A stretch of 64,000 bases of DNA. It comes from Astropecten irregularis. Lineage: Eukaryota; Echinodermata; Asteroidea; Paxillosida; Astropectinidae. Positions 826-27,190 of this stretch are shown piece after piece. Below the pieces are notes generated by a model that ran no database searches, was not told the DNA's origin, and saw nothing but the letters and a program-made list of their open reading frames with translations. A program made the translations under genes and the position numbers. Numbering within the stretch: the stretch's first letter is position 1; every line of letters begins with the position of its first letter. The stretch covers positions 9,098,499-9,162,498 of the forward strand of contig OZ020250.1 in assembly GCA_963971285.1 (NCBI GenBank). Reading direction: 5' to 3'.

Positions 826-1660
<835 letters not shown>

Positions 1661-3335: not shown

Positions 3336-3654
3336 GGCATTATTTTTTTAGCAAATCAGGTGACAAAACAGAATTCAAAATCAATTACCCAGCAGGCTTC
3401 AGTTGGAACGTTCCTGTAAAGAAAATATATGCTGGAACGTGAATTAAAGAACTTTGGTTCTTCACGAAACAGCTTCTCTTCCAATCAGACAACAAATATT
3501 AGTATTCACTAAAATCATAAGCCTCTAGACACCTTTGTTTCTAATTCATACATTGCAAAGCTTAAAATAAGACTGAAAGCTTCAGATGACTTTCATTTTC
3601 AAGTCCGATAACTGTTTCTAATCGAAATTAATTAGCTGATTTTTAGGTTTTATA

Positions 3655-4026
3655 TTAAAGGTAGTGTCATACTTTGGTTTTTGTCCAAGAAATGCAGATT
3701 CATGGGCAAAAATATCAAGGAAGATACAGTAACAGTCATCTGTGAAAATTTCAGTCCCATTACGGTGCTCATCACCTTTTGAGAAAACAGTGAAAAAAAA
3801 CGCCCAAAATATTTCTGAAGTCTTTTCGCCGTTATTTGTTATCTTTTAAAGATCAAAATTGTTTTTGGTCATTGGTTTTACTCTTTTCTGGATAAATACA
3901 GCATTTCAGGCAGAATTATTTTAACGATAGATTTCTACCATCACCATCATTATACCCAGTAAGTTATAGGTAAATCTGTGACGATTTCTGTTTCGGTAAG
4001 CTGCCAAAGTATGATAGTAACTTTAA
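3655..4026. mobile_element. M1 MITE (TTAA-flanked)
   Basis: Inverted termini of the form AGGTARTATCATACTTTGG and its reverse complement, flanked by TTAA. About 370 bp, non-coding, no transposase. Confidence 0.75.
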
Positions 4027-4448
4027 GATGCAGTTTCATCCAACAATAACAGCATTTATAAGAAATTTAATTTATAGTTCATATGCCTGGGTTATTGGTG
4101 TTATTATCAACTGTTAGTAATTAATAGCATAAACCGTTATGGAAAACATTTTGTACATTAAAATCAAGCATATATTCAGCATACTAATATTTTTTTCACG
4201 ATATGGGTGCAGACCAGTAAATGAAAATTCCCATAGGCTCTCATGTAAAATGGCCAATTAAAACAAATAACCGGTCAAGCTATACAGCCATTCTGCAAAA
4301 CAAAGCTTCGAAAATTCATTTCCATTTTCTTTTAAACATTATAGAGGTTAACCAATTTCATTTTTAAGCGAAAAGTCCATCCAAAAAAAAATAACCCCCA
4401 AACTTCCCTATTTACTTTTAAAACAAGTATCCCTCCACAATACTATAA

Positions 4449-4454
4449 TTTATT
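4449..4454 (-). terminator. Candidate polyadenylation signal, gene A
   Basis: AATAAA on the minus strand about 355 nt after the stop codon; the same hexamer and surroundings are conserved after gene B. Confidence 0.4.
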
Positions 4455-4809
4455 ATGGCAAAGGTAGAGGGACTTTATGGCCTTAATTCATTCAAACAGC
4501 TCGGGGGTGACAGTATAAACTCTGGGGACCGGGTCCATTCCCAAGCAGGGCTCGCCAAACGCTTTAAAAAATGCATTTTTAAGTTATCGAAAAATCAGTA
4601 AGTTTCTAACTGAGATTGACCTAATTGCTGGTCTGCACCCAATGGCTAAGGCTGTTTCCCAATTCTCAGGCTGCGGCTGCAAATTATGCATGCACCTTTG
4701 GCAGCAACAGCCACTTTCATAGACTTGCGTGTTATTTGCGGTCGCAGCCATAGATTTGGACTAATTCAAAAAGAAATGCGTTTGAAGGGCGCCCCCATTA
4801 TGTAAACAT

Positions 4810-7800
4810 TTAAGTCTTGGAATCAATGTCGATCACATTGTACTTATTGGAGGATATTATGATTGGTAGTCTTGGACTCGTGCGGTCACTGCTTCCCTTC
4901 ATTCGGTCCAGCATTGAATATTCCCCATCTTCTTCCTTACAGTTGGTCTGCAGTGCGTTGTACGAATTAACATTGACAAGTTTCCCTGGTGGGAGTCGAA
5001 TGGACGTTGCTGCGTAGGCATACGTGGGTGAATTTGACCTAGCGGTCGGGGACGAGTTTACGGCCACCTCATACCCAGGGTCGGCTCTTGCATGCTGCCG
5101 TTTCCCCTTCGCACCCAGCTCCTTGTTGACTTGAGCGTACTTTGGCACGGCACCGGTCGCACCTAGCGATGCCACTTCGTACGGTGCGCTCAGATCTGCC
5201 GGCACTGGATTTGCACGCGACGATTTCGAGGATATCTCGGCAACTTCGTAACCGGTGGGGTTGTTGGCGCCCTCTCGCGGCGAATTTGGGACACCGCAGG
5301 CTGGCTCCTCGTATCCACCGTCATTTCTGCTGCGTTTTTTAACGGGAGCAGATTTTGCTCCCGGGGAGTATACGTCATCTGGATTCTCGTACCCAGTATC
5401 CGATCCCTGCTTACCATTCACCCTCTTCACATCAGGTGGTTGTCTAGTCATCATTTGTTTGGGAGAGTTGGGTTCATAAGGAGACGGCCTATACGCGTGT
5501 CGTTCCGACTGTTGCTGGCAACTTGAAGAAGGACTGGAGAAATCCTCCGAATCCACGCTGACGTAATTACCGTAGGAGAAAGCGACATTGTGGTTCCCGA
5601 GGAGGACCGGGCTGTTGGCGTGAAGTGCACCGGCGCCCGGTGGGCTGTGCACGAGGCCTTTGCCTGGCCCCCGCGGACTCCGCACGTTGTTCCTGGTGCT
5701 GTCCATTCGCGGACAGAAGAAGTCGCCGCTTCGCTCCATTTCGTTGCCTGATATATGTCGCTCATAAGACGGATTTCTAAGAACAGAGACTCCCCCTGTG
5801 GGAAAAATATAACAAAAATACCGTTGTCCTTAAATTCTTGTTCATTCTCTGTTATAGCCCCATTGCTATTTATGGCTTGTTCCTATCTCGCCCACATCTC
5901 GTTCCTAATTCGTTTATGGCTTGTTCCTATCTTGTTCATATCCCGTTCGCATCTTGACAGTATCTGTTTTGTCAAAATCCGCTACGCACGTGTAACAGCT
6001 CTAATAGCACCTGGTAGGGCGCATTGATCTTGTCTTGTCAGTTTTACACAGGATTTCGTCGTTTTGCAATGACAGGTAAAAATGTTGCCACTTGTCGGTA
6101 TAACCAGAAACCAACAAAATGTTTCCGGCCTGATTTTGGACAGGTTGGGGATATTTCCCACTGCTTACTAACTATTTTCTCATTTCAAACTCACCAATGG
6201 TTCACACACAAAAATTGTCGCAAACACATACAAAACAAGCCAATATTCGGTTCGTAAACTCGACCAAAACCAATTTTGATGAAAATTCACAAGTTGCAAT
6301 GTTATGCATTTTAAAAACTAGATGATTAGAATAAAAGACCTCACAAAAAATTATCAACGATGTACTATGCCTTACAGTTCCGTGTGTTCTTACTAAGGCT
6401 TTCCTTCAACCGATACAGGACAGCGGAGCTACATCAGGCTGTGTTTTGTTTGGGGTTGTTGTTTGTTTTTCCTGACGGTCGCTCTTTTTGTTCACTTACC
6501 ATTCGATTTAGGATCCTGATATCTGGATTCATGGAGGTTTGTGCAGTCCACCGCATCAAAACTGAAGGTAAACATTACAGAAACGATTAACCTTTATGAG
6601 GTGAACAGTTGAACACGAATCAAAGAGAATTGCAATGCTTATTTTGTTGTCGCTAGCGCTTGTAAATAATTTGAGCAAAAAGTTACTTTATTCATTCGGT
6701 ATACACATATCACATGGTTTGAGGGTGGACAGTCGATTCTAGCTCCCGAGGTGTTGGAAATTGACAAACTATAGTTCCCGAGGCGAAGTTTGTCAACTTT
6801 CAACACCAAGGGAAGCTAGAATCGACTATCCACCCGAAATAAGCCATGTGATATTTGTTTTACTATACCTCATAAATATTCACAATTGATTCGTCGAGAT
6901 CGGCATCAGTAAGTGCAGGAAAATGTTCGTGTTCGTGAGCTACCATTAACTTCATGTAGGTCGAGGCTCACGCACGCGCGCTGCAAACTTTTCCTAGGAT
7001 GCGCAGTGAGACGTTCCACGCGCAGTGAGATGTTACACGTGTAACAGTTCCTTCGGAGATTCCCCGGCCTACTCGCCGGTGATCAGCAAATATATCCACA
7101 TGGCACGTGATGGTGAATTGACCAATTGGGATTCGGCTCTAGGTCGTAAATATTTATGAGGTATAGCAATAGGTATTATCATCATTTCTGCATTAAACCG
7201 ACACAGATAATCAAAGAAAGATTACTGGAAAGCTGAACCGAACAAAACTCATGAACTCAAGACAGAACGGGAAGGAGGCGACATAATGACAAATCCCTTA
7301 AAGGTGCAATCTTACTTTGGTAGCAAACCAAAACAGAAATCTTACAGATTTACCTATACCTTTCAGGGTATAAAGACGATGAAGGTACAAACATATCGTT
7401 TTACGTTTTCCTGCCAGAAATGATGTATTTATCAAGAAATGAGTAAAAACCAACGACCGAAAACAATTTTGATCTATATAAAAGATAAAAAATAACGGTG
7501 AAAAGATTTTTTTTAATACCTTGGGCGTTTTTCACTGTTATGTTTTCTTCAAAAAGTGGGCATCTGCATTTCTTTGACAAAAACCAAAGTATGATATTAC
7601 CTTTATAGTATTCGATGTGCAAATTGTGCAAATCCTATATACACCGATTCGACGGCACGAAATGCCATCCGCCATTACTGCGGTGTCCCCGCCCGCCTTT
7701 TGTGTGTCATACACGAATCCAACTTGCAATTCGTGTAATGGGAGACTTTTGAGAATCGGTCTTCAAGTCAACAGCTCACGCGCACGCAATTGTGAGCATG

Positions 7801-10800
7801 CGCACGCAATTATGCTCACAATTGCATGCTCAGCGCGTGCGCTGTTGACTTGAAGACCGATTCTCAAAAGTCTCCCATTGGCCCTGCGGTGTATCAGGGG
7901 ACATGTACCCTGCAGTATAGAGTGCAGCAGAGCGGAAATTCTGTTGTTGCCACTCAGTAGGCGGACGGAGACACCACAGTAATGGCGGACGGTACGTCGT
8001 GCCGTCGGATCGATATATACAGACTGAATTAAACACATGAATCGTATAATTATACCGATTATCTACAGGAATATCCACGCGAGCAGGCTTGCCACGTGAC
8101 CGCCGCCTCCTTCGGAATAGCGCCACCAAGAGGATAATGACGAATATTGCCAAGACTGCCGGTAGCCAGTACTGGATATAGAAGACAACCTCGTTTGACA
8201 CGTTGCCATTGACAGCAGCTTCCGTGGTCGTAGTCACACCTGCGAATGGATATCAATTACATGTATAGAGTTTGACTCAGGGTTCGGCCGGATTCGGTTA
8301 ACGGCTTTTGCTCACGGCCGTTGCTGCCTGGACTTTGGTGCATATCACAAAGCAGCAAGAGCCTTAGTCGAAGTCGTAACTGCTGACTTGGATCCCAACA
8401 CTTACACAGCAGAATGTGGGTCTGCATATGCATACATAAACAGTGCTTTTACACGGCTCCAATTCTGGTTGAAGATTGAATTCTGACTTGGATTTCAATG
8501 ACTTCAAATGGGCGAAGGATACGAGATGCCTTTTGTACAAATTTGATGACTCCATTCAGTGGTATAGGTCCACGGTTCAGTCATTAACCTGAAGAAAAGA
8601 CGCCAATGAAGTCGCCACGTCACGGTAGACAACTCGGGAATTTTACAAGCATCAAAGCAGTTTCATTTTATTTACCTCCTATCTGTGACGGCGATGTCAT
8701 GCTGGAGGTTTCTTGGGTGGTTGTCGGATCAGGCGTCCGTATTGGCGTCGTTGGTGATGTCACGGTGGTCACCCGTACCTCGGTCTCCAGCTTTGTTGTT
8801 GGTGTCGTGCCTGGCGAGGAGTCAGTCGTTGGTGGCGCACTTGTCGTGAGGCAGTTTTGCGGTGTAAAATAAGAACTCCTTGACAAGAAATTATACAGAA
8901 TATTGTTTTCCAACACCAAAGCATTCTGTCAAACATTTAGAGGCCCATCAACTCATTGGCCTGTCCTTTTTCAAACTCTGTTCGTTGTCTGTTGGGGTCT
9001 TTTAGGTTGTTAGTTTATGTATGTTACTGTAGTGGTTCCATAACAGTCTACTCATCAATACAAGTAATAAACTGGTAAAATGTATAAAATGCTTGGAGTT
9101 AGGAGGGTCTGGCGCGTTTCGATCCTGGCAGGATCTTTGTCAAAGAATTCGATAAAGATCCTGCTAGGATCGAAACGCGCCAGACCCTCCTAACTCCAGG
9201 CTCCTTATCAACTTTGTTTTGGGACAAAAACTCGCATCATCCCCCAGTTAATGTTTCTGTAGGATTGTGCTCTGTATTTAATCCCTTGATACAATTTGTA
9301 GAGTTGCATTTTGCATATATTTCGAAATGAGTGTATGTGTGAGTTTGTATAGTAGTATTCAAGCCGTGGACGAAATAACAAAGGGATTTAACTGTGGGAA
9401 AAGGTCTACGATTGGAAAGCATGTACAAAACCAATGGAGCTGCTGCCCAAAAAAGAGGAACAATTGGGGTCCACGATTGCAGGCGTTTACACACTTGCGG
9501 GTGTGTAGCATGCACACTGTGGACCTCATGACAATGGACTTCCACAATGCAGGATCCCAAGACGTTATGTGGACTCGCACATGTCCACATAATGTCTTGA
9601 TGCCAACAAAAATGCCACCAGAGAAATTTCCAATGTGTCTTTATCCGTCGCAAATTGAAGTTTATTATTCAAGGGATATTTTGTCCAAATTCAATCATGA
9701 AAAGATTGGTACAGTTTAAATACCAATGGTTTGAAGTTGTTCATCTGGACAGTAAATGGGAGCAAAGGAAAGTCTACATAAGGTATGTAAAACAAACGTG
9801 TGTGTGAGTGTGTGTGGTCTTCTAGGTCGCTAGTTACAGTTTGTCATCAGCACTTACCCTTTGTATCTACTAGATGGCGAGCACTCAGCCCCTATGCGTC
9901 GATTAGGTCGTGGACTTTCATGATCGTAGCCGAACTGCAGTATTCGATCTCTAGGCCCATTGGTGATGCAAACGCATTCATCCTCTTTGGCGCCTTCGTA
10001 ACAAGCATCTTCACTGGCTTCGTCATTTGGTGTCGAACTTGCGAAGCATGTAGGGCCATGGCCACCATTCCTGTACCGACGACGTCCTAGTTAAAACCGC
10101 AGTTGTTGATCAAACAGAAAAATACCGAGCAAGCGCTTGTATTAGGATTCTACCATTTCATTTTTTATGACAGCGTTTCCAAATATCAATTTATATAACA
10201 AAATGCAAATCATTTTGTTATATCAGGGAATTGACTCGATTGATTTAAGTCATTGGAAGACTGGAGCAGGATTTGAACCAGCGACCTCCAAAATCCTGTA
10301 ACCGTCCTCTGCTCTTATACCAACTGAGCTATAGTATCTTTGTTCGTTTGCCACTCAGAAGCCAGGAAACCACTCACATGATCATTTAAGATAGGCGCAG
10401 CATTAGCAATGTTGCAATCTTAGAAACAGTACATGGGGGATTACTCAAAGAGGATACGGCTTTTTAATCATGGAATTTATCCAATAAACCACAAAGAAAA
10501 CTGACCGGATTACATTTTATTTTATTCAAGAGGGAATGAACTGCCACGCGGCTAATGAGCCTTTGATTTAAATTAGTATCAAATTGTGACTTGGGCATTT
10601 CACATTCGAACAGTACGTGATTTTCTTACTGAATGTTTCTGCTTTCATTAGTTTTGTATTAGTTATCATTCGTTTTTGTTTATGTTTTCTGGATATTAAG
10701 TGGATTTTTTTGGCCTAGCATGTAAAACACACAAGTTTTAATATGGTACCATCATGATTCTATTAGACTCTTTATAATGTACCTCTAACAGACCTCCATA

Positions 10801-13066
10801 CCATGATTTAATGGTTTTCTTTCTCACGAGTTTTGGTTTGTTTTAAAAGCTACCGGGAGAAGCATGTTAGTGATGTCAAAATATTGACAGTTGTATATTA
10901 AAGTAAACTTCATACTTTGTTTTTGTTTTGCCAATGAAATGCAGATTCATGGGCAAAAATATCAAGAAAGATACAGTAATAGTCATCTGAGGGAAAAAAC
11001 ACTTCACGGTATTTTCAAATCTACTCACAGAAGTTTGATCTCCCCTTTTGGTATTTTGTTTGCTCTTTTCTGGATAAATACAGCATTTTGGGCATATGTA
11101 TTTAACGGTATATTTCTAGCCATCTATGTATAGGTAAACCTGTGAACATTTCTGCTTTGGTTTGTTACCAATGTTGTACATGCCATTTAAACCATGACGG
11201 AAATACAAAGATTTACTTGCGAAATTCTCGGGTGCATCGCCACACGGTTCTCGGGCCGGACATTGGAGGTAACCTTTGCACTGCGCCCTGAAATTAAAAA
11301 GAAAAGAAATTTACTGACAGGGTAATAGTATAAGTTTTTCCGGTCATGACCGAGAAGTGCCACTATTAGTGTTCACTCGGCCCAAACCATGAAATAGCCA
11401 CATGGGGCTGCGAATTTCAACTGCAATTGCAAGTGTTGTGTCTATTTTTGTTTGTCGAACATTTTAATTTCGACACCAACGGAGAAGTCTGCATATAAAT
11501 ACCAAACCTTATTCTAACAGATATCCTCATCACACACTTTTGTAACTTATTTCTAAAATCCTCTGAGTCAATGAAACTGAATTTGGCTACCGTGTTCCTT
11601 TTAGGACAAAAAAATAGACGGTAAGACTGTATTTATAATAGATATAGGGAAAAATAGGGAGACATGTATCTTATAATAAATCTATCTAAAATATCCGATA
11701 TCTATGTATCACGACCCTCTATATGACAGTCTACTATTTATTCATTAAAAAAGGTATAACGCATCATAGCTATAGCTTTTTGTAGTGGTAAATAAATATG
11801 TATTTCTCTTAAGTTGTGATTAATGTGGAATAAAGAAAGGATAGTTATTAGATTTTAAAGACAAAGAAATTATTCAAATATTGATCAAATTCCCTTAAAA
11901 ATCGATCATAATAAAATTAGCCTTAAACTAAGTCAATTAAAGGAAGCACCATACTTTGGTTTCTGTCAAAGAAATACAGATTCATGGGCAGAAATATCAA
12001 GGAACATACAATAAAAGTAATCTGTGAAACTTTCAGTCCCATACGGTGCTCACTTTTTGAGAAAACAGTGAAAAACGGCCACAGTATTTCTTAAGTCTTT
12101 TCTCTTTTATTTTTGATCTTTTAAAAGATAAAAAAGATTTTCGGTCGTTGTTTTATTAATTTCTGGATAAATACATCATACCCTGAAAGTCATATGTAAA
12201 TCTGTAAACATTTCTGTTTTGGTCGCTTACCAAAGTATGATACAACCTTTAATGTTTCTCAGTAGTCGTATCGACAACTGTGCAATCCCCTTTTTAACTT
12301 CAACTTTTAGGTTTTGCTTTTCTGTTGTTTTTATAGCTTGTTTATCATGCCGTAAATTTCTGTGTATTTTCTTAATGTAGTGTTCGTGTATATGTACATG
12401 TATGTTTTAACACCGTGGTTTGATGTTTTACCTACTATAACGCAAACTTATTCCTCTTCAGTTTTATCTTTGTTTTTATGATTATGTGTTTTGATGTAAA
12501 TTTTACCATTGTATGAATAAGCATGTTTTTCATTTTCTTTTAACTATGTAAACGACAAGCAATTCAGCCTATGGCTGCGAAATGTCTGTGCAATAAACCA
12601 TTAATAAAAAATAATAATACATGTTGGCCTACCGAGTAAGGATTCTATAAACTTGTTATCACGATTTCGAAATGAATTCAGAATTTAGAAAGTCAATTTC
12701 TGTACAGTATCTTAAATTCAGGGATTACGTTAAATAATTCTAACGAATTCAGAAAAACATAAAACGAGCTTGAGAGAAGACGAATATAGTTGATTATTAT
12801 ATCCAGATTATTGATTTACTTATTTGTTTGAACAGCAGAGGGTTTTATTTTTTTTTTTGGGGGGGGGGGGGGGGGGTAATGATTAATATTGTGCCACCGA
12901 CTTACCATTCACACACGTGTCTAAGTACCATCGGTATCCATTCATCTGCACCGCGCCGTAAACGACGGTCAACCCTGGTGTCGTTTGGCAAGGAAGTATA
13001 ACTATCCGCGACAACCATAACCATCATAGTCACACATAATCCACAGACAACCAAATACTTTGCCAT
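4810..13066 (-). CDS. Gene A: single-pass receptor-like protein with Cys-rich/mucin ectodomain and multi-tyrosine tail (copy 1)
   Basis: Seven exons with consistent phases: 13066-12906, 11287-11217, 10086-9858, 8878-8676, 8239-8056, 6561-6500, 5747-4810 (1848 bp, 615 aa plus stop). Start ATG has A at -3 and G at +4. Exon 1 encodes a signal peptide (MAKYLVVCGLCVTMMVMVVA), an NDT glycosylation sequon and a basic RRLRR site. Exons 2-3 (about residues 54-153) form a Cys-rich domain of no recognised family. Exon 4 is a Thr/Pro-rich mucin-like stalk. Exon 5 carries an NVS sequon, a transmembrane helix (about 242-263) and an RRRRRS stop-transfer. Exons 6-7 give a tail of more than 330 residues with no kinase domain; exon 7 has 16 tyrosines, including YENP (pYxN, Grb2-SH2 type), YEEP, three YEVA, YAQV, YSML and YNVI (YxxPhi type). 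Likely a phosphotyrosine-scaffold receptor. The architecture is seen in the sequence; a recognition or immune role is inference. Tandem paralogue of gene B. Confidence 0.82.
6710..6850. repeat. Inverted repeat in gene A intron 6
   Basis: TCACATGGTTTGAGGGTGGA pairs with the segment ending CCACCCGAAATAAGCCATGTGA; inner arms include ATTCTAGCTCCC and its reverse form. Shared with 19055-19190. Confidence 0.6.
6861..7166. repeat. Element with TATACCTCATAAATATT termini
   Basis: The left end is repeated inverted as AATATTTATGAGGTATA about 300 bp on. Unit 2 has the counterpart at 19203-19503. Confidence 0.6.
7298..7606. mobile_element. M1 MITE in gene A intron 6
   Basis: Left end TTAAAGGTGCAATCTTAC, right end CCAAAGTATGATATTACC. 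Shared with unit 2. Confidence 0.7.
7635..8020. mobile_element. Palindromic element (outer) in gene A intron 5
   Basis: CTATATACACCGATTCGACG at the left pairs with CGTCGGATCGATATATAC at the right; inner arms CGCCATTACTGCGGTGTC and reverse. Holds a second palindrome at 7737-7879 and ends close to the exon 5 donor. Confidence 0.65.
7737..7879. mobile_element. Nested 143-bp palindrome
   Basis: AATGGGAGACTTTTGAGAAT pairs with its reverse complement ending at 7879. Relatives at 20085-20218 and 51713-51853. Confidence 0.7.
9092..9200. mobile_element. 109-bp palindrome, gene A intron 3
   Basis: Arms CTTGGAGTTAGGAGGGTCTG and reverse complement meet around TCTTTGTCAAAGAATTCGA. Absent from the matching place in unit 2. 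Confidence 0.7.
10214..10549 (-). mobile_element. tRNA-derived SINE insertion, gene A intron 2
   Basis: Minus-strand A-box region TAGCTCAGTTGGTATAAGAG and B-box region GGTTCAAATCC (10263-10335), preceded by the conserved GGTTTCCTGGCTTCTGA segment. The site in unit 2 (near 22940) is empty. Confidence 0.6.
10898..11190. mobile_element. M1 MITE in gene A intron 2
   Basis: Internally shortened member ending in CATTTAA about 26 bp from the exon 2 donor. Confidence 0.6.
11937..12252. mobile_element. M1 MITE in gene A intron 1
   Basis: Left end TTAAAGGAAGCACCATACTT, right end CAAAGTATGATACAACC then TTTAA. Confidence 0.7.
12849..12876 (+). repeat. T-run followed by an 18-G run
   Basis: A run of T followed by about 18 G, 29 bp inside intron 1 from the exon 1 donor of gene A. 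Unit 2 has a much shorter T-run plus GGGGGG at about 26245-26256. Confidence 0.8.
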
Positions 13067-13544
13067 TGTCGAATTGGTCCAATTTCAAGTTTCTTCTCCA
13101 CTCAATGCGTTGTTATAGACGGCAAAATGTACGTTCGTACGTTCAACTATTCACACAATTCCTATTGTTTGTATCAAGCACGGATGTCACATCATCACCA
13201 ATTCCATGAATCAATTATCTTTGAACTGACGCAATTATGCAGTACATTTTATTAAGAAATGTCTTCCTGCCTAACTATCAAGCCACATGCTTTGTCACAT
13301 TCACATTTAATAGCGTACTGTTGGCTTGGGTAAGGTTGTGAAGATTTGATGCTATTCTTCTATTTCTCATGCTACCGGAAAAGAAAGAACGCGTGTATGG
13401 GCTTCCGCTCCACCAGATGTCAGGTTTTCCTGTGGACAGAAGTGAGGTCAAACGGAGGTTGTTGGTCTACTATAATTAGTAGGAAAAACCAAAATAATGT
13501 ATGGAGATGTATAATTGCTTCATATTCTTGTATCAGAGGCTGCC
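13067..13544 (-). promoter_or_regulatory. 5' flank of gene A, candidate promoter
   Basis: About 480 bp between the gene A start codon and the trinucleotide array. Nearly all of it recurs upstream of gene B, so any promoter would have been copied with the gene. No convincing TATA box or initiator was recognised; the call rests on position only. Confidence 0.25.
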
Positions 13545-13701
13545 GCTGCTGTTGGTGCTGCTGCTGCTGCTGTTGGTGCTGCTGCTGGTGTTGCTGCTGC
13601 TGTTGGTGCTGCTGCTGCTGGTGTTGCTGCTGCTGTTGCTGCTGCTGCTGATGCTGATGCTGCTGCTGATGCTGATGCTGCTGTTGTTGTTGTTGTTTTC
13701 G

Positions 13702-13785
<84 letters not shown>

Positions 13786-13818
13786 TCGTTGTTGTTGTTT
13801 TCGTTGTTGTTGTTTTCG

Positions 13819-13854
<36 letters not shown>

Positions 13855-13886
13855 TCGTTGTTGTTGTTTTCGTTGTTGTTGTTGTT

Positions 13887-13977
<91 letters not shown>

Positions 13978-14096
13978 TTGTTGTTGTCATTGTGGTTGTT
14001 GTTGACATTGTTGGTGCTTTTATTGACGTTGTTCTCGTCGTTGTTGACGTTGTTGTTGTTGCTGTCGTCGTCGTCGTCGTCGTCGTTGTTATAGCC
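13545..14096. repeat. Trinucleotide array 2, CTG-rich then TTG/TTGTCG
   Basis: Starts CTG/GTG-rich after GAGGCTGCCGCT, passes through TTG with TTTTCG interruptions, and ends in TTGTCG hexamers and GTC runs. Its left flank matches array 3 and its right flank matches array 1, so it lies at the junction of the two duplication units. Confidence 0.95.
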
Positions 14097-15200
14097 GTCT
14101 AACATCCCCAGATATGGGTAAAGTGTTCTGCAGCAGCAGAAAAAAATGCAGCAATGTCGTTATGCGCAAATTACATTAAAACAAATATCAAGTCTAAACG
14201 GCCCCTTTGATATTTAAATACCCAACTCATGACACACATCGGGCTCGTGAAAAGAAGAGATCCAAAGCGTCAATCCGAGTTGCTTGCATCATTTCATCAT
14301 ATTCTCCTTCTTTTCTTTTTTTCATTTGCCCCGTTCGGCGGTCAGCCCCCACCCACCCATTCCCTTCGTCACCACCCAGACATTAGGTTCACCATCACCA
14401 CAGCAATAACCATCACCATCAGTCAAGGGAATGCCTGTCTGCAGAGTCTATAATCAATGTACGTTATTTTATTACCGTCGATGCTACTCATTATTGGGTA
14501 ATTGACTCTTTTCAGGGCAAACTTGACAAGGAAAACCCAATATTCGTCTATAAATAATGAATCCTATGTGCTCTATATCATTCTGAAAATTAAGGAAAAA
14601 ATAATGTTGACACAGCCATTTCTTTCTTTTTGACAGTTTATAGCCTTCATAAACGCGAGATGTATTCGATTGCCAATTATAATTTCCGTTATATCAACAA
14701 TTGGAATAATGAGTGAAAAATTTATTATAAAAGGATTCTGGTGTGTGTTCCCCACGTCACCGCCTATGCGAGTCAATGACCGTTTCTGCCCAATATTTAA
14801 AAAATTGAAACAAATCAGATCAAATCAAAAAGTAAAATAATTTTGTTTTCCGACCATTCAAATATCTTAACATCTTAACATAGTGCGATTTTTATAAGCA
14901 TGAGATAGCCGGTATTAGCACAATTGTCTTTCTAAACTGTCAAACATTTAAAAAAAAAAAAGAAAAAAAAAAAAGATTTTCTGTCCTTAAAATTTGGTCT
15001 TGAGCTGGAAACTTTGTGCTTGGAAGTTTTCTAGTTGAATACCCAAAATCAAAACAGGAAAGAATTAATGTAAAACCCCATCGTGGTATTTTTGTCTGTA
15101 GCTCAAGAGGAATATTTGTATAAATATTACTTCAAGATTAAATTAGAATAAAAGGTGTATACATTACATTGAAGTTGGCCTTTATAGCAAAATTAATCAT

Positions 15201-15570
15201 TTAAAGGTATAATACATGTTTGGTAAAGGTCACAGAACAGCACTTTGTCTGATCCATATGTGCATGAAATAATAAACCTGTGAAAAGTTGAGCTCAATCG
15301 GACATCAGTTCTGAGTCAGGAGAAAAAAAGCGAAAACCCGACTCATTTGTTTTCTTATACAACATAAAGAATGGTAAGATCATTACCCCGAGATCAAAAC
15401 TGTTTTCGGTCTTTTTTGACTAATTTCTGGATAAATCTAGCATTTCAGGCGGAAACATTTGAACTGTATGTTTCTATCACCACCATTTTTATACCCTGAA
15501 AGTTATACGCAAATCTGTAAACTTTTCTGTTTGGGTATGTTACCAATCCTGTTATGTACTGTACCTTTAA
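15201..15570. mobile_element. M2 MITE, unit 2 counterpart of 2965-3335
   Basis: Same site in the duplicate, so it was inserted before the duplication. Confidence 0.7.
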
Positions 15571-15904
15571 GGCATTATTGTTTTAGCAAATCAGGTGACA
15601 AACCAGAATTCAACATCAATTACCCAGCAGGCTTCAGTTGGAACGTTCCTGTAAAGAAAATATATGCTGGAACGTAAATTAAAGAACTTTGGTTCTTCAC
15701 GGAACAGCTTCTCTTCCAATCAAACAAAAAATATTAGTACATGTATTCACTAAAATCGTAAGCCTCTTGAGACACCTTTGTTTCTAACTAGTCCTACGTT
15801 GCAAAGCTTAAAATAAGACTGAAAGCTTCAGCTCACTTTCATTTTCAATTCCGATAGCTGTTTCTGATCGAAATTATAGCTAATGCGGATGTTTAGGTTT
15901 TATA

Positions 15905-16274
15905 TTAAAGGTAATATCATACTTTGGTTTTTTTCCAAGAAATGCAGATTCATGGGCAACAATATCAAGGAAGATACAGCAACAGTCATCTGTGAAAATT
16001 TCAGTCCCATTACGGTGCTCACCTTTTGAGAAAACAGTGAAAAAAAAACGCCCAAAATATTTCTGAAGTCTTTTCGCCGTTATTTGTTATCTTTTAAAGA
16101 TCAAAATTGTTTTGGGTCATTGGTTTTACTCTTTTCTGGATAAATACAGCATTTCAAGCAGAATTATTTTAACGATATGTTTCTACCATTACCATCATTA
16201 TACCCAGTAAGTTATAGGTAAATCTGTGACGATTTCTGTTTCGGTAAGCTACCAAAGTATGATAGTAACTTTAA
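15905..16274. mobile_element. M1 MITE, counterpart of 3655-4026
   Basis: Same position in unit 2; predates the duplication. Confidence 0.75.
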
Positions 16275-16712
16275 GATGCAGTTTCATCCAACAATAACAG
16301 CATTTATAAAACTATAAATTAAAACTATTAAAACTATAATTAATAGTTCATATGCCTGGGCTATTGGTGTTATTATCAACTGTTAGTAATTAATAGCATA
16401 AACTGTTATGAAAAACATTTTGTACATTAAAATCAAGCATAATTATATTCAGCATACTAATAATTTTTTCACGATATGGGTGCAGACCAGTAAATGAAAA
16501 TTCCCATAGGCTCTCATGTAAAATGCCCAATTAAAAAAAAACCCGATCAAGCTATACAGCAAAATAAAGCTTCGAAAATTCAATTTTAATTTTCTTTTAA
16601 ACATTTTAGAGGTTAACCAATTACTTTTTAAGCGAAAAGTCCACCCAAAGAAAAATAACCCCCAAACTGCCAAATTTACTTTTTTTTTAAGTATCCCTCC
16701 ACAATACTATAA

Positions 16713-16718
16713 TTTATT
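16713..16718 (-). terminator. Candidate polyadenylation signal, gene B
   Basis: AATAAA on the minus strand about 355 nt downstream of the gene B stop, equivalent to 4449-4454. Confidence 0.4.
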
Positions 16719-17073
16719 ATGGCAAAAGTAGAGCGACTTTAGGGCCTGAATTCATTCAAACAGCTCGGAGGTGAAAGTCCAAACTCTGGGGACCGGGTCC
16801 ATTCCAAAGCAGGGCTCGCCAAACGCCTTAAAAAATGTATTTTTAAGTTATCGAAAAATCAGTAAGTTTCTAACTGAGATTGACCTAATTGCTGGTCTGC
16901 ACCCAATGGCTAAGGATGTTTCCCAATTCTCAGGCTGCGGCTGCAAATTATGCATGCACCTATGGCAGCAACAGCCACTTTCATAGACTTGCGTGTTATT
17001 TGCGGTCGCAGCCATAGATTTGGAATAATTCAAAACGAAATGCGTTTGAAGGGCGCCCCCATTATGTCAAAAT

Positions 17074-20000
17074 TTAAGTCTTGGAGTCAATGTCGATCAC
17101 ATTGTACTTATTGGAGGATATTATGATTGGTAGTCTTGGACTCGTGCGGTCACTGCTTCCCTTCAATCGGTCCAGCATTGAATATTCCCCATCTTCTTCC
17201 TTACAGTTGGTCTGCAGTGCGTTGTACGAATTAACATTGACAAGTTTCCCTGGTGGGAGTCGAATGGACGTTGCTGCGTAGGCATACGTGGGTGAATTTG
17301 ACCTAGCGGTCGGGGACGAGTTTACGGCCACCTCATACCCAGGAAAGGCTCTTGCATGCTGGAGTTTCCCCTTCGCACCCAGCTCCTTGTTGACTTGAGC
17401 GTACTTTGGCACGGCACCGGTCGCACCTAGCGATGCCACTTCGTACGATGCGCTCAGATCTGCCGGCACTGGATTTGCACGCGACGATTTCGAGGAGATC
17501 TCGGCAACTTCGTAACCGGTGGGGTTGTTGGCGCCCTCTCGCGGCGATTTTGGGACACCGCAGGCTGGCTCCTCGTATCCACCGTCATTTCTGCTGCGTT
17601 TTTTAACGGGAGCAGATTTTGCTCCCGGGGAGTATACGTCATCTGGATTCTCGTACCCAGTATCCGATCCCTGCTTACCATTCACCCTCTTCACATCGAG
17701 TGGTTGTCTAGTCATCATTTGTTTGGGAGAGTTGGGTTCATAAGGAGACGGCCTATCCGCGTGGCGTTCCGACTGTTGCTGGCAACTTGAAGAAGGACTG
17801 GAGAAATCCTCCGAATCCACGCAGACGTAATTACCGTAGGAGAAAGCGACATTGTGGTTTCCGAGAAGGACCGGGCTGATGGCGTGAAGCGCACCGGCGG
17901 CGGCAGCACCGGCGCCCGGTGGGCTGTGCACGAGGCCTTTGCCCGGCCCCTGCGGACTCCGCACGTTGTTCCTGGTGCTGTCCATTCGCGGACAGAAAAA
18001 GTCGCCGCTTCGCTCCATTTCGTTGCCTGATATATGTCGCTCATAAGACGGATTTCTAAGAACAGAGACTCCCCCTGTGGGAAAAATACAACAAAAATAC
18101 CGTTGTCCTTAAATTCTTGTTCATTCTCTGTTATAGCCCCATTGCTATTTATGGCTTGTTCCTATCTCGCCCACATCTCGTTCCTAATTCGTTTATGGCT
18201 TGTTCCTATCTTGTTCATATCCCGTTCGCATCTTGACAGTATCTGTTTTGTCAAAATCCGCTACGCACGTGTAACAGCTCTTATAGCACCTGGTAGGGCG
18301 CATTGATCTTGTCTTGTCGGTTTTACACAGGATTTCGTCGTTTTGCAATGACAGGTAAAAATGTTGCCACTTGTCGGTATAACCAGAAACCAACAAAATG
18401 TTTCCGGCCTGATTTTGGACAGGTTGGGGATATTTCCCACTTCTTACTAACTATTTTCTCATTTCAAACTCACCAATGGTTCACACAAAAAAATTGTCGC
18501 AAACACATACAAAACAAGCCAATATTCGGTTCGTAAACTCGACCAAAACCAATTTTGTTGAAAATTCACAAGTTGCAATGTTATGCATTTTAAAAACAAG
18601 ATGATTAGAATAAAAGACCTCACAAAAAATTATCAACGATGTACTATGCCTTACAGTTCCGTGTGTTCTTACTAAGGCTTTCCTTCAACCGATACAGGAC
18701 AGCGGGGCTACATCAGGCTGTGTTTTGTTTGGGGTTGTTGTTTGTTTTTCCTGACGGTCGCTCTGATTATGATTGTGTTTTCTAACACCGTTAATGCACC
18801 AATGTCCCCATCTTCGCTCCTCCTATCTTTTTGTTCACTTACCATTCGATTTAGGATCCTGATATCTGGATTCATGGAGGTTTGTGCAGTCCACCACATC
18901 AAAACTGAAGGTAAACATTACAGAAACGATTAACCTTTATGAGGTGAACAATTGAACACGAATCAAAGAGAATTGCAATGCTTATTTTGTTGTCGCTAGC
19001 GCTTGTAATTTGAGCAAAAAGTTACTTTATTCATTCGGTATACACATATCACAAGGTTTGAGGGTGGACAGCCGATTCTAGCTCCCGAGGTGTTGGAAGT
19101 TGACAAACTATAGTTCCCGAGGCGAAGTTTGTCAACTTCCAACACCGAGGGAAGCTAGAATCCACTATTCACCCGAAATAAACCATGTGATATTTGTTTT
19201 ACTATACCTCATAAATATTCACAATTGATTCGTCGAGATCGGCATCAGTAAGTGCAGGAAAATGTTCGTGTTTGTGAGCTACCATTAACTTCATGTAGGT
19301 TAAGGCTCACGCACGCGCGCTGCAAACTTTTCCTAGGATTCGCAGTGAGACGTTCCACGCGCAGTGAGATGTTACACGTGTAACAGTTCCTTCGGAGATT
19401 CCCCGGCCTACTCGCTGGTGATCAGCAAATATTTCCACTGGCACGTGATGGTGAATTGACCAATTGGGATTCGGCTCTAGGTCGTAAATATTTATGAGGT
19501 ATAGCAATAGGTATTATCATCATTTCTGCATTAAACCGACACAGATAATCAAAGAAAGATTACTGGAAAGCTGAGCCGAACAAAACTCATGAACTCAAGA
19601 CAGAACGGGAAAGAGGCAACATAATGACAAATCGCTTAAAGGTGCAATCATACTTTGGTAGCAAACCAAAACAGAAATCTTTACAGATTTACCTATACCT
19701 TTCAGGGTATAAAGACGATGAAGGTAGAAACATATCGTTTTACGTTTTCCTGCCAGAAATGATGTATTTATCAAGAAATGAGTAAAAACCAACGACCGAA
19801 AACAATTTTGATCTATATAAAAGATTTTAAAAAAAATAACGGTGAAAAGTTTTTTTTAATACCTTGGGCGTTTTTCACTGTTATGTTTTCTTCAAAAAGT
19901 GGGCATCTGCATTTCTTTGACAAAAACCAAAGTATGATATTACCTTTATAGTATTCGACAGAATGTGCAAATTGTGCATATCCTATATACACCGATTCGA

Positions 20001-23000
20001 CGGCACGAAATGCCATCCGCCATTACTGCGGTGTCCCCGTCCGCCTTTTGTTTGTCATACACGAATCCAACTTGCAGTTCATGTAATGGGAGACTTTTTA
20101 GAATCGGTCTTCAAGTCAACAGCTCACGCGCACGCAATTATGAGCATGTGCGTGCATGATCACAATTGCGTGCGCTTTCGCTGTTGACTTGAAGACCGAT
20201 TCTAAAAAGTTTCCCATTGGCCCTGCGGTGTATCAGGGGACATGTACCCTGCAGTATATAGTGCAGCAGAGCGGAAATTCTGTTGTTGCCACTCAGTGGG
20301 CACAAAAGGCGGACGGAGACACCGCAGTAATGGCGGACGGTATGTCGTGCCGTCGGATCGGTATATACAGAGTTAAAAAAAAAAAAACTCACAGAGTTAA
20401 GGAACACATGAATCATATAAATATACCGATTATCTACAGGGATATCCACGCGAGCAGGATTGCCACGTGACCGCCGCCTCCTTCGGAATAGCGCCACCAA
20501 GAGGATAATGACGAATATTGCCAAGACTGCCGGTAGCCAGTACTGGATATAGAAGACAACCTCGTTTGACACGTTGCCATTGGCAGCCGCTTCCGTGGTC
20601 ATAGTCACACCTGGGCATGAATATAAATGATTGACTTTGGCTCAGGGTTCGGCCGGATTCGAGTTAACGGGGATGGCTCACGGCCGTTGCTGCCTGCACT
20701 TTGGTGCACACAAAAAAGCAAGAACCTTTAATAGATACCTTCGTATCTCAACAACTACACACAGTGCTTCCACAATCAAAATGATGATTTCCTCATTCGG
20801 AGACTCAAATTTCCTTCTTTTCCTCCCGATTTCCTTATTTTTTCATAATAGTCAAAAAAGCCTATTAAACATGTACTAGACTACTTCACTGTTCTATAAA
20901 TCTTGTTATGCTGAGAGTGAGCAGAGGTCAGCGCTAAAAACGTACCAGTGACTGACTGCCAATAATACAGGTATATACATAATATAATACAGGCTAGGCA
21001 CGCACTGCATTCCATGCCCCAGAAATAATTAATAAAAAGAAAAGAATAAAAAGCGCCCTCTGCAGCTTTTACTGATAATAGGGCCTCGGACTCCAGATCC
21101 AGGGGAAACTATGCTTGTAAGATATGGCAATTCAATGTAGGCCCTAATCAGACAACAAATTTTTCGAAAATTATCATAAATTCATAGATTTTGCTGCTTA
21201 TTTGGAAAATTATGTATCATTTGCTCAGAACTTAATAATATCCTTACAATTTCTTTAGATTTGGAGGATTTCCTTAAAATTTCCTCGGTTTTTTTCATTT
21301 CCTTAAATATTCCTTCAAAAGTAAAAATTCCCTTAAAATGAGGAAATTTCCCTGAATGTGGAAACGCTGACTACACAGGAGAATGTGGACCAACAGACCG
21401 TTGCATGCAATACACCAACAGTGATTGTACACGGCTCCCATTCATGCCCAAATCCTGAAGGAAAGACTCATAAGAGGAAAGATACACAACTCAGGAGATT
21501 TTACCAAGCAAGCAGCTTATTTATTTACCTCCTTTCTGTGATGGTGATGTCACCATGGAGGTTTCGTACGTGGTAGTTGACCAATCAGGCGTCCGCATTG
21601 GCGTCGTTGGTGATGTCATGGTGGTCACTCGTACCTCGGTCTCCATCTTTGTTGTTGGTGTTGTGCCTGGCGAGGAGTCAGTCGTTGGTGGCGCACTTGT
21701 CGTGAGGCAGTTTTGCGGTGTAAAATACTTCCTCCTTGACAAGGAATTATACAGAATATTGTTTTCCAACACCAAAGCATTCTGTCAAACATTTAGAGGC
21801 CTATCAACTCATTGGCCTGTCTTTTTTCAAACGCAGGTTGTCTGTTTGTGTGGGGGTGTTGGGGTGTTTGTTTGTGTGTTTATTTCTATGGGTGCGTTCG
21901 TTTAGCTCCCCCGGGTCGACACCAGTCAACCTCGTCCCCATTCTCCCGCTTGTTTTGTGCAGTAAAGCACGACCATTCACAGTAAGGACTGACCCGGGGG
22001 AGCTAAACGAATGCACCTTATATGCACCTTATACGTGGTTCAACTTTGTTTGGGACAAACTCCCCCCTCCCCCCAATTACTCTGTAGGATTGTGCTCTGT
22101 GTTTCATCCCTGTTGAAAGTTGTCGAGTTATATTTTGCATATCCTACATGTAGTTCAAAATGAGTGAGATTGTGTAGTGGTATTCAAGCCGTGGAGTGAT
22201 AACAAAGGGATAGTAATGGTCCACGATTAGGAAAAGGTCTACGATTGGAAAGCATGTACAAAACCAATGGAGCTGATAAACAAAAAGTCTAACTAAAAGA
22301 GGAACAATAGGGGTCCACGACTGCAGGCGTTACACACCTCTTGTAATTGTGGGTTTGTATAGGCATTCAAACCGTGGACTGATAACAAAAGGGACAATAG
22401 GGTCCACGATTGGAAAAAGGTCCACGATTGGAAAGCATGTACAAAACCAATGGAGCTGCTGCCAAAAAGTTTAAGTCCAAACAAAAGAGGAACAATAGGG
22501 GGTCCACGATTGCAGGTGTTTACACACGTGTGTGCGGGGGTGGGTGGGTTGGTTGGGGGGGGGGGGGGGGGTCTTCTAGGTCGCTTTTAAATGTTCAGCA
22601 CTGTAATCAGCACTTACCCTATTTCTGACGAGCACACTTCTTCTATAGGTCCATTAAGACTTTCATGGCCGAACTGCAGCAGTATGCGGTCTGGCCAATT
22701 GGTGATGATGCAAGCGCACTCATTCTCTTCGGGACCATCCTCACAAACATCACAACCCTTGTTGCGTCGTGCATAGCATGTACGGCCACTATTCCAGTAA
22801 AAACATCCTAGTTAAAATCATACAGTTGTCAGTTCAAACAGAAAGATACCACGCACTTGTTTTAGAATTGTAAGATTTCATTTTTTTTATGATAGCGTTT
22901 TCAAATATCAATATTATTGATATAACAAAATGCAAATCATTGCGGCAAATGAACCTTTGATTTCAATTAGTATCAAATTGTGACTTGGGCATTTCAGATT

Positions 23001-26000
23001 CGAACAGTACGTGATTTCCGTACACAATATATTTTTCTTCCCTCTCTTTTTTGTTTATGTTTTATTAATGTTTTCTTGAATGTGTTCCCTTTCTCACGAG
23101 TTTTGTTTTGAAAGCCACCGGGGGAAGCATGTTAGTGATGTCAGAATTATGACAGTTGGATATTAAAGGTAATATCATACTTTGGTTTTTGTCAAAGAAA
23201 TGTAGAGTCAGGGTCAAAAATATCAAGGAAGATACAGTAACAGTCATCTGTGAAATTTTCGAGAAAAAAAAGGCCAAAAATTATTGTGGTCTCTGTTTTT
23301 ACTCTTTTCTGGTAAATACAGCATTTCAGGCAGAAAAAAAATCAACGGTATGTTTCTCCCATCACCATCTTTATACCTTGTAAGTTATAGGTAAATCTGT
23401 GGAGATGCTACCAAAGTATGATACTACCTTTAAGGCACATGATATGGGCAAATGGATTTAATCTCATGTTGAAAATGTATAATGCTTACTGAACATGACG
23501 AAACAAAATGGCGGAAGGTGCACCTTAAAGTTGCAGACCAGTAAATATATAGGTCAAAATCAGTCCGCGGAGCTCATTAATTTTGTGTATACCCTCAAAA
23601 TCGTTTTTTTTTATAAAATGATTATTTGCTGGGCCCTACATGGGAAGTCTTATAGAGAAAATGGATGGAACCCGGTCACCAGAGTTTGGACTCCAAACTT
23701 GGAGCCGTTTGGATGAAATCAGGCCCCAAAGTCGCTCTACTTTGTCATGTAGGGGAGGGGTACATTTTTTAGTCTGGCATCAGTCAACATGGCCGTTTTC
23801 ATGGTATTTTCCTTTGGATGGACCTTTTTTATATTGGCCATTTAGCATGGGAGCCTATGGTAAATTGATTACTGGTTTGCACAGTTATGTGTAACTTGAG
23901 GTATAGGCCTATAAAGCCATTGACGTACAACAAGCAATGCTTGTTTCGTCGTGTGGATTCATGCACCATGTAAAACCACGATATCCGGAGCGTCATTTCA
24001 AAGTTGTCATTAAAAAGCTTAAAGGTTTAATACATGATTGGTAAAGGTCACATAACAGCACTGACACTTTGTCTGAATCTGCATATATTTGAAATGATAA
24101 ACCTGTGAAAATTTGAACTCAATCGGACATCTGAGTCACAAGAAAAACAGCGAAAACCCGACTCAATTTTGCTTATAAAACATAAAGAATGGTTTTGATT
24201 TTACCCCGAGATCAAAACTGTTTTCGATCGTTGTTATACTAATTCCTGGATAAATACACCATTTCAGGCGGAAATATCTTAAAGGTAATATCATACTTGT
24301 CAAAGAAATGCAGATTCATGGGCAAAAATATCAAGGTAGATACAGCAACAGTCATCTGAAAAAATGTCGATCCCCTACGATGCCCACCAGAAAACAGTGA
24401 AAAACAGCCACAGTGTCTTTAAGTCTTTTCACTTTTATTTTTGATCTTTAAAAAATCAAAAAAAAAAATTGTCTCTGGTTTTACTCTTTTCTGGATAAAT
24501 ACGGCATTTCAAGCAGAAAAATTTTAACAGTATGTTCTACCATAGCCATAGGTAAATCTGTGAAGATTTCTGTTTCGGTATGCTACCAAAGTATGATACT
24601 AGCTTTAACGGTATGTTTCTACCAGCACCATCTTCATAACATGAAAGTTATAGGTACATATGTGAACATTTCTGTTAGTGGGTATGTTACCAATCCTGTA
24701 ATGTACCTGTAAAATCCGCTGACAACAGAAGTTCACCTTGGTTTCCGCCACTTTTACAAAATTGCGTTGATCGACCGAATAAAAAGTCTGGTTCCCGACT
24801 CAACGCCAAGCCTTGAATCATGTGGTTTAAGTTTCGTTTATATATTTAAAGTTAGTATCACACTTTGGTAAGACACCAAAACAGGAATGTTCACATATTT
24901 ACGTATAACTTACAAAGTATGAAGATGGTGGTGGTAGAAACCTACCGTTAAAATGTTTTCGCCTGAAATGGTGTATTTATCCAGAAATTAGTAAAACAAC
25001 GACCGAAAATCTTTTTGATCTTTTAAAAGATTAAAAACACTAAATAGAAAAGACTTAAGAAATACTGTGGCCGTTTTTCACTGTTTTCTCAAAAAGTGGG
25101 CACCGTATGGGACTGAAATTTTCACAGATGACTGTGACTGTATCTTCCTTAATATTTTTGCCCACGAATCTGTATTTCTTTGACAAAAACCAAAGTATGA
25201 TATTACCTTTAAACCATAACAGAAATTCAAAGACTTACTTTTGAAATTGGCCGGTGCGACTGTACACTGGTCTTGGGCCGGACACTGAAGATAACCTTTG
25301 CACTCCGCCCTGAAATTCAAAAGGTCAATCTTGTTTTAATTCATTCTTCAAAAGACATAAAGACATAATTTGTGAAAAGTAAGTGCCAGTATTTTTCGGC
25401 CCTAAATAACCACATGTCAATGAACCCGAGTTTGTTGCCGCGTTCATATCAGGCACTTTCACACACACCAAAAAGCGCGACTATTTGGGTCGCAATTTGC
25501 AGCGCGACCCAAATAGTAGCGCTTTTTGGTGTGTGTGAACGTGCGTTTAATGACAACCTTCTATATCTATAGTAAAAAAAAAACATGTGGGTAAACTTGT
25601 GTCTTTAGTAGGCCTAAATAGAAAATAAGGAAAGATCGAAATATCTCACATTATATACTGGGACTCCAAGTTACACATTCATTTGTAGTGCCAAATTAAA
25701 TGTTTGTGTTTCTCTATTTGTTATTAGCGTGGGGTAAAGAAACGTTAATATCTTAAAGGTTTAAAAAAAGGAATTCAAATGTTGTTTCAATTCTTTTAAT
25801 AATCAACTATATTGAAATTAACCCTAAGCTTTGTCAAGGACCAGGATCCTGCACGATTAAAGATGTACAATTTTCATTTTGACAACATTGTATGAATATA
25901 TTAATTAAGGATGCTGTATGCTTTTTATTCTGATTTTGAAATTAATCAACAATTTAGAATGTCAATTTCATTCAGGTTTTGTTATGATGAATAATAGTCT

Positions 26001-26444
26001 GACAAATTCAGAAAAATAATCAATATAAGTAATAACTGCTGCAAACTGCTCATTGGGCAAAATAATGACCTAAAGGTTTATAAAAAGCTTGGAGTTTAGG
26101 AGGGCATTTCGATCCTAGCAGGAACGCGTCAGGCCCTCCTAACTCCAAGCAAATTCAGAAACATAAATTGTGATTGAATATAGTTGACATTTTCAAATTA
26201 TCCTTTTAACAGCAGATGGATTTTTGTTTTTATTTTATTTATTTTTTTTGGGGGGAAGATTAATTGTGCCGCCGGCTTACCATTTACACATGTTTGTAAG
26301 TACTCTCCGTGTCCATTCATTGTCATTGCGGCGTACACGACGACGGTCATCCCTGGTGTCGTTTGGCAAGGAAGTATAACTATCCGCGACAACCATTACC
26401 ATCATAGTCACACATAATCCACAGACAACCAAATACTTTGCCAT
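17074..26444 (-). CDS. Gene B: single-pass receptor-like protein, tandem paralogue of gene A
   Basis: Seven exons: 26444-26281, 25309-25239, 22807-22618, 21734-21529, 20610-20427, 18904-18843, 18026-17074 (1830 bp, 609 aa plus stop). Exon order and every splice phase match gene A. The leader peptide and transmembrane segment are identical to gene A. The 314-residue exon-7 ORF differs by about ten substitutions plus a five-residue Ala/Gly insertion; one tail tyrosine is lost (AYRPS in A, ADRPS here) and YVSV has become YVCV. In contrast exon 3 is 190 bp instead of 229 bp, has more cysteines (for example CDVCEDGPEENECAC) and aligns only in patches such as DRIL..QFG and HES. A basic RRRVRR site is retained after the leader. 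Both copies are open throughout and use GT-AG sites, so both look functional. Ligand unknown. Confidence 0.82.
19055..19190. repeat. Inverted repeat in gene B intron 6
   Basis: Counterpart of 6710-6850; arm mismatches differ between copies. Confidence 0.55.
19203..19503. repeat. Element with TATACCTCATAAATATT termini, unit 2
   Basis: Counterpart of 6861-7166. Confidence 0.55.
19636..19949. mobile_element. M1 MITE, counterpart of 7298-7606
   Basis: Gene B intron 6, same site as unit 1. Confidence 0.7.
19982..20369. mobile_element. Palindromic element (outer) in gene B intron 5
   Basis: Counterpart of 7635-8020 with the same nested insert. Confidence 0.65.
20085..20218. mobile_element. Nested palindrome, unit 2
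   Basis: Counterpart of 7737-7879, with a somewhat different loop. Confidence 0.65.
21891..22017. mobile_element. Hairpin element, gene B intron 3
   Basis: GGTGCGTTCGTTTAGCTCCC pairs with the right arm ending CTAAACGAATGCACC. Not present in unit 1. Relative at 30885-31012. Confidence 0.7.
22548..22571 (+). repeat. G-run near gene B exon 3
   Basis: A run of about 18 G about 47 bp beyond the exon 3 donor, next to GTGGGTGGGTTGGTTG. Unit 1 has TGTGTGTGAGTGTG instead. Confidence 0.8.
23163..23433. mobile_element. M1 MITE in gene B intron 2
   Basis: Starts TTAAAGGTAATATCATACTT after GACAGTTGGATA, the context also seen left of 10898 in unit 1. Confidence 0.7.
24019..24713. mobile_element. M2 MITE interrupted by an M1 MITE
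   Basis: M2 sequence runs to about 24282, is broken by an M1 copy at 24279-24606, then resumes with AACGGTATGTTTCTACC to about 24713. The M2 target TTAA is present on both sides of the insert. Confidence 0.75.
24279..24606. mobile_element. M1 MITE nested in an M2 MITE
   Basis: Inserted at a TTAA of the M2 copy. TTAA flanks both ends and removing one TTAA plus the insert restores the M2 sequence. Confidence 0.8.
24846..25212. mobile_element. M1 MITE beside gene B exon 2
   Basis: Full-length copy whose right end TTACCTTTAAACC lies about 26 bp from the exon 2 donor. Confidence 0.75.
25451..25546. mobile_element. Palindromic element in gene B intron 1
   Basis: Arms CACACACCAAAAAGCGCGAC and GCGCTTTTTGGTGTGTGTG around a GC-rich centre. 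Confidence 0.65.
26087..26150. mobile_element. Short palindrome of the 9092-9200 family
   Basis: GCTTGGAGTTTAGGAGGGC and GCCCTCCTAACTCCAAGC form near-perfect arms in gene B intron 1. Confidence 0.65.
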
Positions 26445-26960: not shown

Positions 26961-26997
<37 letters not shown>

Positions 26998-27143
26998 GCT
27001 GTTGCTGCTGCTGCTTCTGTTGCTGCTGTTGCTGTTGCTGTTGCTTCTGTTGTTATTGCTACTGCTGCTGCTGCTGACATTGCTGTTGTTGTTGCTGCTG
27101 TTGTTGCTATTGTTGTTGTTGCTGTTGCTGTTGTTGCTATTGT

Positions 27144-27177
<34 letters not shown>

Positions 27178-27190
27178 ATTGTTGCTGTTA
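26955..27190. repeat. Trinucleotide array 3, (TTG/CTG)n
   Basis: Mixed TTG and CTG run after GAGGCTGCCGCT, shorter than arrays 1 and 2 and lacking TTGTCG hexamers. Homology between the two duplication units ends at this array. Confidence 0.95.

Follow-up and report, generated by a model that had tools for sequence, protein, structure and literature searches.

Two neighbouring genes on the minus strand of Astropecten irregularis DNA, here called A and B, are predicted to be two single-pass receptors of one type. The block in which they diverge spans everything that encodes the mature ectodomain, introns included, and is thus wider than exon 3 (Table 1). To account for the pair, we tentatively favour, at a little under an even chance, a scenario in which the genes were duplicated in tandem long ago and their flanks became alike later on, by homogenisation of the kind known from TLR1/TLR6; a joining of two old alleles comes second. 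Positions refer to the window, i.e. the whole stretch of 64,000 nucleotides that was analysed; negative positions lie to its left.

Gene models and predicted proteins

The gene models were derived from the DNA sequence alone. Both genes lie within 4810-26444 and have seven exons each, the introns are bounded by GT-AG in 12 of 12 cases, and the intron phases are the same at every junction. The products (631 aa for A, 625 aa for B) contain no internal stops and end at a stop common to both; the initial annotation was thus correct in describing both copies as open and in phase. They share one layout, which comprises a leader, a propeptide with a furin-like site, a Cys-rich ectodomain, a Thr/Ser stalk, a transmembrane segment and a tyrosine-rich tail. 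Exon 1 encodes RLRR in A and RVRR in B, which we take to be the furin-like site, and the precursors are probably cut at this RxRR motif.

Leader and transmembrane segment had been described as identical in the two neighbours, and indeed no difference is found in the transmembrane segment or in residues 1-31. The similarity of the tails, put at about 97% by eye, was close to the mark: exon 7 DNA is 97.8% identical (964 of 986 aligned bases; a further 15 bases are gapped) and the protein 95.5%, with the gap counted. Exon 3 has changed in length (229 vs. 190 bp), in Cys number (5 vs. 7) and in most residues (43% protein identity), again as first noted. After the leader, the ectodomain of A has 10 Cys and that of B 12, both even numbers. 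The exon length changes between the genes (3, 39, 3 and 15) are multiples of three in 4 of 4 cases, the intron length differences in 1 of 6.

The tails contain 18 (A) and 17 (B) tyrosines and carry NPSY, YENP/YEEP and, in both genes, an ITAM-like pair, YNAL-x10-YSML. The ITAM motif is YxxL/I-x6-12-YxxL/I, and the ITIM motif is [ILVST]xYxx[LIV]. When the tyrosine contexts were read by eye, ITIM motifs were found at 0 of the 18 tyrosines in the A tail and 0 of the 17 in the B tail. The motifs present suggest putative docking sites for SH2/PTB adaptors. Exons 5-7 are under constraint, with a dN/dS of 0.36 (0.17-0.74). The two receptors may differ in ligand specificity and would then feed two inputs into the same signal.

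Table 1. Features of the receptor pair and its surroundings (window positions)
Feature	Position	Strand	Basis
(GTT)n array, left end of unit A	827..1658	.	
Homogenised 3' side, 4.9% (1700-4574) and 2.4% (4575-8211) differences	A 1700..8211; B partner about 14169-20582	.	BIC segmentation
Gene A exon 7: tyrosine-rich tail and stop	4810..5795	(-)	
Gene A exon 6	6500..6561	(-)	
Gene A exon 5: transmembrane segment, then RRRRR	8056..8239	(-)	
Divergent block, 17.8% differences in alignable part	A 8212..12961; B partner roughly 20583-26339 (projected)	.	BIC segmentation, sliding identity
Gene A exon 4: final ectodomain Cys and Thr/Ser/Pro-rich stalk	8676..8878	(-)	
Gene A exon 3: Cys-rich, 5 Cys	9858..10086	(-)	
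Gene A exon 2: Cys-rich	11217..11287	(-)	
Gene A exon 1: leader, propeptide with RLRR furin-like site, mature-chain start	12906..13066	(-)	site from translation
GTT/GCT array, A-B junction	13539..14090	.	
Gene B exon 7: tail and stop	17074..18074	(-)	
Gene B exon 6	18843..18904	(-)	
Gene B exon 5: transmembrane segment	20427..20610	(-)	
Gene B exon 4: stalk	21529..21734	(-)	
Gene B exon 3: Cys-rich, 7 Cys	22618..22807	(-)	
Gene B exon 2	25239..25309	(-)	
Gene B exon 1: leader, propeptide with RVRR furin-like site	26281..26444	(-)	
GTT/GCT array, right end of unit B	26961..27189	.	
Gene C, 3' part: stalk, transmembrane, middle and tail exons; phases 2-1, 1-2, 2-1, 1 as in A/B exons 4-7	32508..36582	(-)	splice sites by eye, phases weak test

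Extent of the divergence and the role of selection

From exon 1 to exon 7, A and B are 89, 76, 77, 90, 97, 98 and 98% identical. For introns 1 to 6, a global alignment gives 77, 80, 84, 82, 97 and 99% of paired bases; introns 1-4 contain large insertions, and the alignment is rough there. Sliding identity amounts to 89-99% from the 3' flank up to A 8303, then drops, and recovers to 86-99% in exon 1 and onwards into the 5' flank. BIC segmentation, which like the non-coding counts and the nucleotide alignment of exons 2-3 below used chosen alignable blocks only and left out large parts of introns 1-4, divides A into four pieces with 4.9% (1700-4574), 2.4% (4575-8211), 17.8% (8212-12961) and 6.5% (12962-13539) differences. 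The divergent piece begins 28 bases inside the transmembrane exon (A 8212) and ends at codon 35-36 of exon 1 (A 12961), within the RxRR site. The view that this is a receptor pair with a conserved signalling part and a divergent outer part is supported. The divergence extends beyond exon 3: the end of exon 1, exon 2, part of exon 4 and the introns between them have diverged as well.

The same sharp step is found in non-coding DNA and at synonymous sites. Non-coding differences amount to 186 of 4970 positions (3.7%) on the 3' side, as compared with 118 of 783 (15.1%) in the alignable parts of introns 1-3 (p = 8e-30); the latter figure counts alignable sequence only and is thus biased and probably too low. 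Values of dS are 0.045 in exons 5-7 and 0.435 in exons 2-3. Where A and B share a residue, the codon is identical too in 379 of 389 cases for the transmembrane segment and tail and in 94 of 109 for the ectodomain (p = 2e-5). The initial annotation had offered two explanations, namely that selection diversified the ectodomain or that the rest was homogenised, and it is the second one that this step supports. The first is not borne out by exons 2-3, for which dN/dS is 0.60 with a bootstrap range of 0.33-1.13.

For single exons, dN/dS is 1.28 (0.45-6.01) in exon 1, 0.73 (0.34-1.88) in exon 3 and 0.64 (0.24-1.96) in exon 4. The exon 3 estimates depend on the alignment, a MAFFT protein alignment giving a dN of 0.42 and a dS of 0.48 (NG86) and the codon alignment 0.27 and 0.37. 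Four further codon-alignment settings left exons 2-3 unaltered and shifted exon 4 in one case. Selection on the protein alone would leave introns and synonymous sites even along the gene; as both are uneven, it cannot alone explain the step. Positive selection as the sole cause is ruled out by the divergence of silent sites and introns.

Exons 2-3 do exceed the alignable introns, with 62 of 255 differences (24%) in the codon alignment and 82 of 261 (31%) in the nucleotide alignment (p = 3e-8 vs. the 118 of 783 in introns), and this excess is also present at synonymous sites. Together with the coincidence of the divergent block with the mature ectodomain, it is what would be expected if the genes had duplicated recently and positive selection had then changed the ectodomain very fast. 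However, introns and synonymous sites have diverged too, and with the dN/dS of exons 2-3 given above we regard this course of events as very improbable. Neutral drift had been proposed to show itself in introns as diverged as exon 3 and in a dN/dS near 1. Here the outcome is mixed, with 15.1% differences in introns 1-3 against 24-31% in exons 2-3, and a dN/dS that is under 1 by no clear margin. Neutral decay or relaxed constraint in the ectodomain of one copy would agree with the ectodomain-exon dN/dS not being significantly below 1, but the lack of stops and frameshifts, the preserved phases and the even Cys numbers speak against it, and we give it little credence.

Related sequences in the genome and the neighbourhood

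The initial annotation had also suggested looking for more copies. A search of the 475.7-Mb genome with protein B (E up to 10) resulted in 13 matches, one for each of the 14 exons of the pair except exon 3 of A, and no third copy was found; since that exon was missed, a diverged third ectodomain could escape the search, but a similar third tail would not. An exon 3 profile built from A and B detected nothing else below E 0.6 among the 7625 open frames of at least 25 aa in 294 kb, and tblastn within the window found no convincing spare exon 3 cassettes in the introns.

Pfam searches with E up to 10 delivered only DUF6121 (A) and TMEM154 (B), both below their cut-offs. They gave no model match to the Cys-rich receptor families named in Pfam (EGF, SRCR, TNFR, Ly6, Ig and others) and no LRR or TIR domains, which characterize the TLR family. 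In the PDB sequence search (E up to 10), neither the whole of B nor the A and B ectodomains found a match. The predicted structure of B exon 3, with exon 3 of A as the sole other row, has a mean pLDDT of 49.1, which leaves room for a distant fold relation. In the part of the literature covered on echinoderm relatives, receptor-pair precedents and allorecognition, this receptor type was not found described.

Two further genes, C and D, look like old relatives of A and B, a resemblance that lies in architecture and intron phase and does not extend to the sequence. The tail of C contains repeated YVDVDS-like units. D is a candidate left of the window, with a transmembrane exon at -7207 to -7052 (phases 1-2) that has RRRRR after the transmembrane segment; its tyrosine-rich tail frame (C14:9085711-9086976, window -12787 to -11522) includes YDEP, SVYNTL and DDIYNVI. 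Its splice sites were assigned by eye, and the phase of the tail is ambiguous. The D tail has no Pfam match (E up to 1), and in the genome (E up to 10) the C and D tails each match themselves alone. Shuffled tails reached the real score in 6 of 500 cases for A-C, 121 of 500 for A-D and 389 of 500 for C-D, and kinship is thus not proven by sequence. When A and D were compared over their last 40-odd residues, a segment chosen after inspection, 89 of 2000 shuffles did so. A strict scan for Cys exons like exons 2 and 3 found none for C or D, but it also missed the exons 3 of A and B. A looser scan that recovers these found one weak candidate for C that resembles exon 2 and none that resembles exon 3, and two of each, all weak, for D; the exon-3 profile supported none of the C and D candidates.

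The surroundings contain other features. The C-terminal domain of a peptide-N-glycosidase F-type protein lies at 48500-48808 (-) (Pfam E 1.1e-15), and a tRNA-like Rfam match of 37.2 bits at 53488-53559 (-), where ARAGORN reports none, is perhaps a tRNA-derived repeat. A repeat of about 310-370 bp occurs in both orientations (3655-4026, 24845-25213, 28879-29245, 36933-37245, 41772-42133 and 50711-51077) and also in the left flank; its copies are about 82-92% identical among the matches listed, and it is likely a short DNA transposon. In the right flank, three adjacent open frames (window 83533-100987) are 84.5-89% mutually identical, and the frame that was tested is a GH3 family member (E 8e-62). 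Further to the right (155048-163999), a frame of 2984 aa that extends to the end of the stretch examined resembles, by eye, a Helitron-type transposon. Elsewhere in the assembly, COX1 has matches of equal score at C168:6974 (probably the mitochondrion) and C25:9951314 (a nuclear copy or a misjoin), and a third match (C131:32783) is 46% identical, with a 552-aa frame without stops; this last contig may be bacterial. The mitochondrial code agrees with an echinoderm: of translation tables 9, 5 and 2, table 9, which echinoderms and flatworms use, gives Asn at the five AAA codons of the mitochondrial COX1, where Asn is mostly conserved, and an echinoderm-like COX1 query matches at 85%.

Origin of the pair and comparison with known receptors

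In the reading that we favour, the pair would have arisen by an old tandem duplication, probably via unequal exchange between GTT arrays at both unit ends, as the positions of the arrays suggest. GTT-type arrays bound both units, which fits such an exchange. The 3' half, i.e. transmembrane segment, tail and 3' flank, would later have been homogenised by gene conversion or unequal exchange, and the 5' flank and leader to a lesser degree. Homogenisation may have stopped at the ectodomain block because the copies were already too different and too rich in insertions there, or because such events were removed by selection. With just two sequences, conversion is not demonstrable by a tree. Against homogenisation, it can be said that the similar stretch is longer than 6.5 kb and extends as far as a GTT array, as would suit a recent duplication as well, and that conversion alone does not predict the excess of exons 2-3 over the alignable introns, synonymous sites included.

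Furthermore, a single recent exchange between diverged alleles yields the same divergence profile. A and B would then be old alleles of one gene, with ectodomains held apart by balancing selection, that a single unequal crossing-over, at the GTT arrays of two haplotypes, brought onto one chromosome; we consider this unlikely, but the most serious of the alternatives. The whole profile would follow from one structural event, GTT-type arrays are present at all three unit boundaries, and the divergence of the flanks would be ordinary allelic divergence: the flanks differ by 2.4-6.5%, and the heterozygosity of marine invertebrates is in about this range. However, alleles would be required to differ by a dS of about 0.4 across a sharply bounded 4.7 kb, and dN/dS in exons 2-3 is not above 1. 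A more far-reaching form appears more doubtful still. Here the gene would be a recognition receptor of the allorecognition, gamete or immune type, and A and B two of its ancient, balanced allele lineages, joined by an unequal crossing-over at the GTT arrays, so that carriers would be permanent heterozygotes, and the locus would be part of a D-A-B-C cluster of an undescribed echinoderm receptor family. An assembly artefact, in which the two haplotypes of one locus were placed in tandem, is improbable. The flank identity is near the allelic level and the join lies within a simple repeat, but the surrounding 294 kb contain no N, both copies are complete, and the genome-wide matches of the tail DNA are A and B only, with none on other contigs.

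The homogenisation that we favour has a precedent. In TLR1/TLR6 of nine mammals, the transmembrane segment and most of the TIR domain were homogenised by repeated, independent conversions, and the N-terminal part has diverged; the conversion tracts of 893-1033 bases end within the coding sequence, and in the homogenised part shared residues have the same codons, the identical-codon test being used there as well (PMC2077338). A and B are likewise a tandem receptor pair in which silent divergence drops sharply in the transmembrane and signalling part. In contrast to these LRR/TIR proteins from nine species, A and B are different proteins from one genome, and their similar stretch is longer than 6.5 kb and includes introns and the 3' flank.

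CD300A/CD300C and the relatives of CEACAM1 are paired immune receptors with similar ectodomains and differing signalling parts. They too are neighbouring genes that resemble each other in one half and differ in the other; in A and B, however, the pattern is reversed, the signalling part being alike, and no Ig-type domain was found. Clustered protocadherins combine a variable outer part with one shared set of constant cytoplasmic exons. The combination of variable outer and common cytoplasmic part is similar, but A and B each have their own tail exons.

The kind of event is already known from TLR1/TLR6, and the A/B receptor type has no sequence relative in Pfam or the PDB. To our knowledge, echinoderm recognition receptors are poorly known. 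The pair would be a clean natural case, introns included, of two receptors with one signalling output and two different inputs, and it offers a precise boundary for testing, from the RxRR site to the transmembrane exon. If the two genes are joined alleles instead, a fixed heterozygote would have been caught in the genome.
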